Positions 58,091-61,236 of a stretch of DNA of 64,000 nt are shown in pieces (within the stretch, counting starts at the first letter, position 1; each line of letters starts with the position of its first letter). This DNA is from Haloferax litoreum (GTDB lineage: Archaea > Halobacteriota > Halobacteria > Halobacteriales > Haloferacaceae), in assembly GCF_009674605.1 (NCBI RefSeq), contig NZ_WKJO01000001.1:806001-870000 (forward strand). Reading direction: 5' to 3'. The notes under the pieces are model-generated. The model was not told the origin of the DNA. It searched no databases and saw only the letters and a list, made by a program, of their open reading frames with translations. The translations under genes and the position numbers were made by a program.

Positions 58091-58402
58091 TTAGACGCGC
58101 CGTCGGATAATCTGGACGTTCCGGGCCGTGACGACGGTCCCAAGTAATGTCAGTGCAGTGGGAACAGCGAGCCGAGCAGTCGTGGGGCTGAGCGTCCAGT
58201 ACGCGGCCACGAAGAGCGCGACTGAGACGAGTTTCAACACGGCGAACGACCCCGGTCCGGGGTCGCCGCCAGAGATAAATCGAACGAGTGGGTTCCCCTC
58301 CTGTACACCTGCCATCCTGACCCCGACGATGGTCGTGACGTAGTCACCGAGGCCGTAGGCGAGTGCCGCCGCGCCCCAGAGGATGGCGTCGAGCGAAGCC
58401 AT
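58091..58402 (-). CDS. Small membrane protein, 103 aa
   Basis: MASLDAILWGAAALAYGLGD opens the first of three hydrophobic helices; GVQEGNPLVRFISGGDPGPG is a polar loop and LKLVSVALFVAAYWTL the next helix. The pattern is common among unassigned haloarchaeal membrane proteins. It is upstream of tbp on the same strand, but the strong tbp promoter between them makes co-transcription unnecessary. Confidence 0.75.
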   Translation of the reverse strand: MASLDAILWGAAALAYGLGDYVTTIVGVRMAGVQEGNPLVRFISGGDPGPGSFAVLKLVSVALFVAAYWTLSPTTARLAVPTALTLLGTVVTARNVQIIRRRV

Positions 58403-58560
58403 GGGGGTGGATTCGGACCATCCGTCATAAATCTCGCCGTCCGTCGTCGGACAGGAGACCCCACTCGTGGCGGCACGCTGGCACCCCCGAAACCCGTACG
58501 AACGCAGACAGACTCGCCGGCGACCGATACCCTCATTTTTCCGCCCCGTTAGGTCCGAGC

Positions 58561-59526
58561 GTGTACGGATTGGAACTCGCCGGCGAGGAAGACGCGTTCG
58601 CCGCGCGCGAGGCAGAGGCGGCGGCGACGGCAGTCGAAGTGGTCGCCCCGGGTCTCGCCACCGCCCGCGGCGTCGACATCGAGCGAGCGACACTGCTCGC
58701 GTACACCCGCCGCGTCGTCGAACTCGTCGGGAAGTGCGACCCCGACGTCGACGCCGCCCGCGCACTCGTCGAAGCCGCGAGCATCGACCGCGAAGGGACC
58801 GTCGCCGTCCGCGCCCGCGACGTGCGCGGCCTGACCGGTGTCAGTACGAGCGACGCCGAGCGAACTGTTGGGTCCGCCCTGGTGGAGCGCGGATTCGACG
58901 TGGACCTCGACGACCCAGACCACGAACTCCGCGTCTACTTCACCGAGGGAACGTGTCTCGTCGGGTGGGCCGTCGCCGAGAGCGTCCGAGACTTCTCGGA
59001 CCGAAAACCGACCGACCGACCGTTCTTCCAACCGGGGAGCATGGCCCCCGTGGACGCCCGTGCCTTCGTCAACATCGCCGGCGCGGAACCCGGCGCACGC
59101 ATCCTCGACCCGATGTGCGGAACTGGCGGCGTGTTACTCGAAGCGGGTCTCGTCGGGGCCGACGTCGTCGGCGTCGACGCACAGGAGAAGATGGCCCGCG
59201 GTGCGCGGGTGAATTTGGACCACTACGTCGACGGCGGGCACGTGGTCCGCGGCGACGCGACTGCACTCCCGTTCCGCGACGACACCATGGACGGTGTCGT
59301 CTTCGACGCGCCGTACGGGAGACAGTCGAAAATCGAGACGCATTCACTGGCAGACTTGGTCGGCGGCGCGTTAGAAGAGGTGTATCGAGTCGCCCCGCAG
59401 TGTGTGATGGTCGCCGATAGGTCGTGGGTGGACGAGGCCGAGGATGCGGGGTGGGACGTCGAACAGGTGTTCGAGCGACGAGTCCACCGGTCGCTCGTTC
59501 GGTACGTGCACATTTTGACGCGGTGA
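58561..59526 (+). CDS. tRNA (guanine-10) N2-methyltransferase, 321 aa
   Basis: Archaeal Trm-G10 (Trm11-like). The N-terminal 160 residues form a ferredoxin-like/THUMP region that recognises tRNA, and the C-terminal half is a class I methyltransferase: ARILDPMCGTGGVLLEAGLV (motif I), VGVDAQEKMARGARVNL, and VVFDAPYGRQSKI with the DxPYG catalytic motif, where the usual second Pro is Ala. It produces m2G/m22G at G10 of tRNA. The GTG at 58561 begins at the conserved YGLELAGEE; a T-rich CATTTTT lies about 25 bases upstream. Confidence 0.93.
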   Translation: MYGLELAGEEDAFAAREAEAAATAVEVVAPGLATARGVDIERATLLAYTRRVVELVGKCDPDVDAARALVEAASIDREGTVAVRARDVRGLTGVSTSDAERTVGSALVERGFDVDLDDPDHELRVYFTEGTCLVGWAVAESVRDFSDRKPTDRPFFQPGSMAPVDARAFVNIAGAEPGARILDPMCGTGGVLLEAGLVGADVVGVDAQEKMARGARVNLDHYVDGGHVVRGDATALPFRDDTMDGVVFDAPYGRQSKIETHSLADLVGGALEEVYRVAPQCVMVADRSWVDEAEDAGWDVEQVFERRVHRSLVRYVHILTR

Positions 59527-59555
59527 GAGAACAGACGTTCAAAGCGAGGCCATGT

Positions 59556-60581
59556 TCAGGAGTTTTCTTTTGAGACCTCGGTAATCCGTAATACAGCCCC
59601 TTCTACGAGCTCCTGAAATTCACTCTGGTCAATTACTCTAATCCCGTTGGTAGAGGTGGTACTGACCAGACTGGTGACGACATCCGATTCCACGATGACG
59701 ACGAACACACTGGTGACAGACTCGTTCTTCATCAGTGACCGGCACAGCGAGAGATCGATGTGGTCTACCTCCTCTCGATAAAAGACGCGAGCCGCGATGT
59801 TACGCTCTCCTTTGGTCGCAGTCAGTGGTGTGGCAGACTCGCCAATACCTTGTTCGGGAATACTGTAACCGAGAACTTGAAAAATTTCTTTCAGAAGTTC
59901 ACTGACAAGTCGACTGTCATTCGCCTTTCGAACGTACGAATCGAATCGCTTCTGCGAGTAATACGAACCAGACTCAAAGATTGCAGACAGTTCTGGGTAG
60001 GAATTAGCGACGGGAGACGGGATGGAGCGTTTGGTTGTGGGTTTGAGGGGAGAACCCTCGCTGTTGGCACTAGTCCTACCTTTGGACTGACCCACATCTC
60101 TCGCCGTCGTACCATCGTCAAAGACGAGTTCGATAGAATCGAGGTTGGCAAAGATATCAGGGACTTTGCTTCCTTCGGTCATGACCCGTATCTCGTTGTT
60201 GTGAAGAGTAACTTCGCCGCTGCGAGAAGTGTCTGGGTCGACTTTGTGTGGCGGACGCGTGTTGACTCGCTTCGTGAGTTTGACTCTCGGTTGCCCGCGG
60301 ACACGGCGGTCGGCACTCTGGTCCAAATTTTTCCAGTAGCTACGCTCCGTGATGGATTTGAGACCCACGTTCCGTTCGTGGACCATACGCCAGCCATCGA
60401 ATAGGAGTCGCCGACCGTCAGGCGTCTTCACACCAATGAGGGCCGTGCCACCCGTTGTGAATAGTTCGAAACCATTCGATCCACCAATATTTAGCGTGTA
60501 CGGGCCACGGTGAGTGGAAAACCCATCTGCGTTCGGAAGGTGATTTTTGTGATTGTCGTACCACCGGTCGAAAAGTCCCAT
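59556..60581 (-). CDS. Unrecognised low-GC gene; C-terminus resembles a degenerate Mrr-like nuclease fold, 341 aa
   Basis: Codon use and base composition differ sharply from all neighbours: in one 60-base stretch I counted, 59881-59940, only 24 bases are G or C, against 40 of 60 at 59401-59460. The first 165 residues (GLFDRWYDNHKNHLPN, GFELFTTGGTALIGVKT, a PDIFANLDSIELVFDDGT strand) match nothing I know. Residues 225-330 have the order of an Mrr/restriction-endonuclease-like fold (ELLKEIFQVLGYSIPEQG, SVFVVIVESDVV, NGIRVIDQSEFQELVEG), but the expected GD...QxK catalytic residues are absent. Start: ATG 60581; a GTG lies five codons upstream. Probably acquired by transfer. Confidence 0.7.
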   Translation of the reverse strand: MGLFDRWYDNHKNHLPNADGFSTHRGPYTLNIGGSNGFELFTTGGTALIGVKTPDGRRLLFDGWRMVHERNVGLKSITERSYWKNLDQSADRRVRGQPRVKLTKRVNTRPPHKVDPDTSRSGEVTLHNNEIRVMTEGSKVPDIFANLDSIELVFDDGTTARDVGQSKGRTSANSEGSPLKPTTKRSIPSPVANSYPELSAIFESGSYYSQKRFDSYVRKANDSRLVSELLKEIFQVLGYSIPEQGIGESATPLTATKGERNIAARVFYREEVDHIDLSLCRSLMKNESVTSVFVVIVESDVVTSLVSTTSTNGIRVIDQSEFQELVEGAVLRITEVSKENS

Positions 60582-60665
60582 AAGTCCGTAAGACACGTGT
60601 CTCTGGTTCGCAATTCAATCTTTCCTCGAAGTTATCCGGTAGTCGGTTCGTTCGGCACATTCAGA

Positions 60666-60724
60666 CACTGCACCGATTGTCTCGTCGGGAGAGTACCAAC
60701 TCCCGACCAACTATAGGTGCAGTG
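60666..60724. repeat. Nested two-stem inverted repeat upstream of the low-GC gene
   Basis: CACTGCACC at 60666-60674 pairs perfectly with GGTGCAGTG at 60716-60724, and inside it GTCGGGAG (60684-60691) pairs perfectly with CTCCCGAC (60700-60707) around an 8-base loop. A 9-base and 8-base unpaired interval separate the stems. It lies 85-143 bases before the low-GC gene and 24-82 bases after the stop of the GNAT gene, both on the minus strand, so it could be a terminator, a structured leader or a protein-binding site. Confidence 0.6.
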
Positions 60725-60747
60725 AATTGAGGGAGATTGACTACCCT

Positions 60748-61236
60748 CTACTCCAGCACGTACCGATTTTCCCGATACGAGGTGCCCCCGATAGTCGTCT
60801 GACTCTCGTCGACGTACTCGAACCCGAACTGTTGGTAGAAGGTGTTTCCCGGGTCGTTCTCGGCGAGAACCATCGCGTTGATTCGTTCGACACCCTCACT
60901 TGCGAGTTCGGAACGGGTGTGATTGAGCAACTCGTGGCCGACGTTCTGGCGGCGGTAGTCGGGATGGACGTAGAGGCGAAGGATGTAGCCCTCACTCTCG
61001 TCGCTGCTCCACGTCGCGTGGGCGAACCCGACGACTACGTCGTCGCGTTCGGCGACGAGGACGAGTGACCGGGCCGGAAAGAGCGCATCTGCAATCTGCT
61101 CACGTGCGTACCAGTCGTTGAATCCTTCCTCGATAGTTTCACGTGTCAAAACCTCCGGGTAATCTGTCTCCCAGGACGCTTTCGCGACGTGTCGAATCGC
61201 GTCGATATCCTCCTCGGTCGCCACACGAACTGTCAT
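60748..61236 (-). CDS. GNAT family acetyltransferase, 162 aa
   Basis: GNAT fold: TVRVATEEDIDAIRHVAKAS at the start, VVVGFAHATW and LRLYVHPDYRRQNVGHELLNH with the acetyl-CoA loop (R-x-x-N-V-G), and MVLAENDPGNTFYQQFGFEY for the C-terminal N-x-x-F-Y-x-x-x-G-F. It resembles protein N-acetyltransferases of the PhnO/RimI kind; substrate unknown. The ATG at 61236 is preferred over one five codons upstream. A nested inverted repeat lies just past its stop codon. Confidence 0.88.
   Translation of the reverse strand: MTVRVATEEDIDAIRHVAKASWETDYPEVLTRETIEEGFNDWYAREQIADALFPARSLVLVAERDDVVVGFAHATWSSDESEGYILRLYVHPDYRRQNVGHELLNHTRSELASEGVERINAMVLAENDPGNTFYQQFGFEYVDESQTTIGGTSYRENRYVLE

Follow-up and report, generated by a model that had tools for sequence, protein, structure and literature searches.

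Inactive restriction-endonuclease domains have been recorded in conflict systems, for example the iREase of Orc/CDC6–HerA (PMC10853773), and PbeABCD, a phosphorothioate-linked antiviral module that works in haloarchaea (PMC6459918), forms part of DndCDEA–PbeABCD phosphorothioate defence (PMC6459918; PMC10853773). The 64,000-nucleotide stretch of Haloferax litoreum DNA analysed here (the window) contains, at 59556..60581 on the minus strand (ATG start at 60581, stop codon included), a gene for a two-domain protein of 341 aa that invites comparison with these systems. Like Mrr_cat (PF04471) of the type IV/Mrr family, its C-terminal half displays the expected secondary-structure order and aligns by profile over the whole domain, first helix and last strand included; unlike Mrr_cat, it carries S/P/A/R at the catalytic positions and lies below Pfam detection. 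Classical Mrr proteins begin with a winged-helix DNA-binding domain, whereas the window protein has an orphan domain instead, and its N-terminal half gave no Pfam match. With NA-iREase1 (PF22722) and other inactive restriction-endonuclease domains it shares an apparently dead fold within a larger protein and a connection to anti-invader loci. However, the window protein is without a NACHT, STAND or Orc/CDC6 partner; no NTPase domain was found within its 341 aa, and it gave no match to PF22722. The resemblance to DndCDEA–PbeABCD arises from one haloarchaeal genome (G281), in which a homologous C-terminal domain ends an SF2 helicase in a Pbe-type locus; in contrast, no pbe or dnd gene is adjacent to the window gene, and its protein contains no helicase. 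Finally, the Hjc Holliday-junction resolvases provided the best fold matches of a low-confidence model of the C-terminal domain, but they belong to another sequence family and the window protein lacks the catalytic residues; the likeness is one of fold only.

The C-terminal domain comprises residues 190–341 (59559..60014, minus strand), with an Mrr core at about residues 222–328. In single-protein scans, the whole 341-aa protein gave no usable match to Pfam, NCBIfam, PADLOC, PHROGs or PDB sequences, and no relative was present in the viral and phage collections scanned; weak matches to GlyL_C and phrog_15715 were judged to be due to chance. Searches of haloarchaeal genomes brought the number of C-domain sequences to three: that of the window protein, that of a full-length homolog in G399 (32% identity over 333 residues), and that which terminates the 998-aa helicase of G281. 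Weak matches in G118 and G160 were rejected, as these loci overlap unrelated genes or contain stops. Sequence homology to Mrr_cat emerged only with a profile of the three sequences (residues 190–341). The sole matches of this profile above threshold were haloarchaeal Mrr proteins of three additional genomes, which keep intact active sites and are plainly nucleases. In hmmsearch, the best three matches had E-values of 1e-6 to 1e-5, which stem from a small custom set and are not database-wide. A profile–profile comparison of the C-domain with 31 Mrr domains scored 43 (E = 1.3e-6), against no more than 18.3 over 20 column shuffles (best E = 0.028) and 17.7 for a reversed alignment; because the 31 references were gathered mostly as Mrr_cat matches, this result tests Mrr homology and not the general fold.

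In the joint alignment, every one of the four catalytic residues (E, D, Q/E and K) is kept in 30 of the 31 Mrr references. The equivalent positions in the window protein are occupied by S227, P252, A263 and R265, so that none of the four residues of the E-D-(Q/E)xK set is retained; the corresponding residues are Q/D/R/K in G399 and R/D/P/K in G281. The G281 fusion also gave Pfam matches to NA-iREase1 and Mrr_cat, both subthreshold (for PF22722, E = 0.0023 and 18.3 bits versus a cut-off of 27); as PF22722 and PF04471 retrieve overlapping haloarchaeal proteins, this match means Mrr-like and does not denote a subfamily. Assignment of the C-domain to an Mrr-like family, with loss of the catalytic residues, is well supported, in line with the initial annotation, which had described an Mrr-like C-terminus without the acidic-QxK set. 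That annotation also proposed structure prediction for this region. A single-sequence AlphaFold model of the C-domain, queried with Foldseek, matched Hjc resolvases, a splicing endonuclease, MGME1 and HincII (best E = 0.0073); these matches and the α-β-β-β-α-β order agree with a PD-(D/E)xK fold. A restriction-endonuclease fold is therefore likely, albeit predicted from a model of low confidence (pLDDT 52).

The N-terminal orphan domain (residues 1–165; 60087..60581, minus strand) possesses conserved GG...L, TPDG..LF..W and ADRR..G.P blocks, and is followed by a low-complexity linker (residues 166–189; 60015..60086, minus strand) with a terminal RSIPS motif common to the full-length homolog of G399. 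Residues 1–165 matched none of the families or solved structures compared, as anticipated from the earlier statement that they fit no known family, and a structure model of the domain (pLDDT 33.6) was unusable. As far as searched, relatives of the N-domain occur in haloarchaea only. In G399 it is fused to the C-domain, as in the window protein, and in four cases (G016, a Halobellus ramosii plasmid, G301 (Natronomonas aquatica) and G541) it stands alone in proteins of about 135–170 aa. With no known relative among described families or structures, any role assigned to this domain is a guess. The standalone genes of G016 and the Halobellus plasmid (L018 9670-10137 and L003 5944-6402, respectively) have downstream non-coding stretches in common (e.g. 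GCGCCTTGTA and GAACTGGTAGAA), as if gene and downstream stretches had moved as a unit.

Homologs of the window protein are, on the sequences compared here, rare, modular and patchily distributed, and their neighbourhoods provide clues to function. In G399, a tyrosine integrase comes right after the gene for the full-length homolog, at the border of a defence island; farther on, this island includes a type IIG restriction-modification enzyme, a PLD-helicase, a NucS-like protein and a resolvase. The standalone N-domain gene of G541 comes after a probable integrase (Pfam below cut-off), that of the Halobellus ramosii plasmid lies near an IS630 transposase gene, and the short homolog of G016 is placed among winged-helix regulators. 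In G281, the C-domain is fused to the SF2 helicase and a helix-hairpin-helix, and the gene is oriented divergently from genes with matches to PbeA and PbeC and a weak match to PbeD. This Pbe-type variant locus (L015 3816-16116) contains PbeC, a DndE/PbeD-like gene and a PbeA-like helicase whose match to the PbeA profiles is confined to their helicase part. Opposite these lie a DpdJ-like helicase of 1378 aa, a PLD-type protein of 147 aa and the helicase bearing the dead Mrr domain. The link to defence drawn in the initial annotation thus holds indirectly, through homologs; no defence gene, nuclease or helicase adjoins the gene in its own genome.

The composition of the gene is atypical. Its GC content (0.519) is the lowest among the window genes tabulated, and both GC3 (0.563 versus 0.80 ± 0.03) and codon adaptation (0.43 versus a CAI of 0.67 ± 0.07) depart from the values for 41 reference genes of the window, confirming an early impression of low GC and of codon use unlike that of the neighbours. 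These neighbours are, as originally described, a THUMP/UPF0020 RNA methyltransferase resembling TrmG10 (58363-59526) and a GNAT acetyltransferase (60748-61236), and no integrase or transposase adjoins the gene. The gene was absent from all 14 congeners searched, each of which keeps the order TBP, TrmG10, a variable portion, GNAT (in some cases), PSD and RFC. Homology to the nearest congeners ends at the TrmG10 stop codon and restarts at the GNAT 3′ end, indicating that ~1.2 kb is foreign; this stretch (59527..60747) has no recognisable counterpart in the congeners examined. The foreign-looking DNA, at first equated with the low-GC gene, is therefore wider than the gene and extends from ~59527 to ~60745. 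Absence from the congeners, atypical composition and the integrase adjoining the closest homolog together sustain the proposal of horizontal acquisition.

The TrmG10–PSD interval is variable in every congener, and is mostly nearly empty or occupied by small ordinary genes (membrane protein, lipoprotein, GNAT). A 164-aa membrane protein occupies the site in the nearest relative (G006, TrmG10 95% identical), only 277 bp are present in G005, and other congeners have a lipoprotein, the membrane protein or both. A small membrane protein without a Pfam match (PWWYGVA...LYRRGKRVG; L048 1981-2472, with counterparts in L049, L051, L054, L056, L057 and L060) occupies the interval in several congeners and is missing there in the window genome. 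In G009 the interval measures ~4.2 kb, and its cargo (L051 1156-3944) includes an IS240-type transposase with a Pfam E of 7.8e-11. The cargo also has a low-GC cluster (GC3 about 0.41), to which a Tat-signal-like precursor, a cysteine-rich frame and a membrane protein belong. In G003 the interval contains a low-GC stretch without a long ORF. The Tat-signal-like precursor and cysteine-rich frame of G009, interrupted by an ambiguous base or a frameshift, may resemble a halocin-type precursor, for which the membrane protein could be a candidate immunity protein; only the transposase of this cargo matches Pfam. Insofar as G009 and G003 hold other acquired DNA, the interval takes up foreign DNA repeatedly. 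However, no recognised defence system was found at this interval in any congener, and the term hotspot is half earned: variability and acquired cargo speak for it, whereas the defence cargo did not materialise.

Two elements occur upstream of the gene. A perfect 12-bp palindrome, AGACACGTGTCT, is situated at 60591..60602, ~10 nt upstream of the ATG, and overlaps an alternative in-frame GTG start at 60596; it is a possible operator, of modest significance. Between GNAT and the gene lies a strong compound hairpin (60666..60724, minus strand) with a 9-bp outer and an 8-bp inner stem, which folds as single-stranded DNA with –19.1 kcal/mol (z = –4.9). The hairpin has no T-run after it and, as regards a known RNA, no Rfam match. 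It was not seen at four homologs and occurs once only in the genus, such that it was rejected as a conserved system part; it may be an element of the GNAT 3′ end, or a piece of the acquired stretch. Candidate terminal direct or inverted repeats bounding the insertion amounted to matches of 10–11 bp and were unconvincing.

The safest statement is that the window protein is mobile and has two domains, of which the Mrr-like one is catalytically dead. Our preferred reading, which we hold at an even balance of belief and doubt, is that of an anti-invader accessory gained by horizontal transfer, whose dead Mrr domain would bind DNA or a partner and whose N-domain would serve as effector or adaptor. 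The C-terminal half would have descended from an Mrr-type restriction-endonuclease domain and, with all four catalytic residues lost, would cut no DNA by known chemistry. It would most likely retain a DNA- or partner-binding surface and so act as a recognition or recruitment module, with the N-terminal half, which also travels alone on mobile DNA, as the other working part. Given that relatives reside beside integrases and antiviral genes, the protein probably serves in virus or plasmid defence by recognising DNA and not by cutting it; we infer both the binding of DNA or a partner and the role in defence from the context of the homologs. A broader and decidedly tentative proposal is that haloarchaea have a modular anti-invader system that is so far undescribed. 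Its small orphan N-domain protein would be carried about by integrases and plasmids and, depending on the lineage, would work alone or be fused to a dead Mrr recognition domain; separately, the same dead domain would be fused to a helicase in Pbe-type loci.

The association with mobile DNA is also compatible with cargo that serves the element itself, through superinfection exclusion, help with replication or partition, or inhibition of host restriction, the dead Mrr domain acting in the last case as a dominant-negative decoy. Of the homologs, two adjoin a tyrosine integrase, confirmed in one case and probable in the other, and another is plasmid-borne with an IS630 transposase gene nearby. A decoy would moreover have targets, because the genus is rich in active Mrr proteins (at least two Mrr_cat matches in 12 of the 14 congeners), although G000 itself has no Mrr_cat match. 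Nevertheless, presence of the C-domain in the helicase of a Pbe-type locus points to a working defence part, and phage and viral collections gave no match; we therefore regard service to the element as unlikely. A nuclease relic, acquired in an active or semi-active state and now decaying without function, seems to us improbable. Among the three C-domains, erosion of the active site has gone furthest in the window copy, where the D and K kept in G399 and G281 are missing; this copy is also single, without an adjacent partner. Yet its 341-codon frame is intact and fully open (its stop ending at 59556 on the minus strand), and the 32% identity to a distant homolog spans both domains and the linker motif. 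In addition, loss of the catalytic E and Q/E in all three C-domains suggests that inactivity is probably ancestral and not recent. A decaying selfish gene keeps some probability all the same, as constraint is judged on one full-length homolog at 32% identity.

Two other explanations dispense with either the dead domain or defence. Residues E232, K257, D273 and D276 are invariant across the three C-domains, and active-site migration is known within the PD-(D/E)xK superfamily; these residues might replace the canonical set in a nuclease that is still active. However, D276 aligns with an aspartate of several active Mrr proteins, and is thus not special to this group, and invariance over a set of three sequences carries little weight. 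Indeed, with only three sequences containing the C-domain and six the N-domain, conservation claims are weak in general, and a migrated active site is most improbable. The upstream palindrome could alternatively be the protein's own operator, consistent with a DNA-binding regulator that acts in ordinary cell physiology and takes no part in defence, and the G016 short homolog among winged-helix regulators fits this possibility. An extremely patchy distribution, foreign composition, and homologs in a Pbe locus and an island render such a regulator hardly probable.

A domain too diverged for Pfam became placeable with two or three homologs. If the preferred reading of an anti-invader accessory is right, the few archaeal antiviral parts known to date would gain an undescribed domain, as well as a way of using a dead restriction-nuclease domain that has no description yet. 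The gene, single and intact, would then be testable for virus or plasmid resistance in laboratory haloarchaea.
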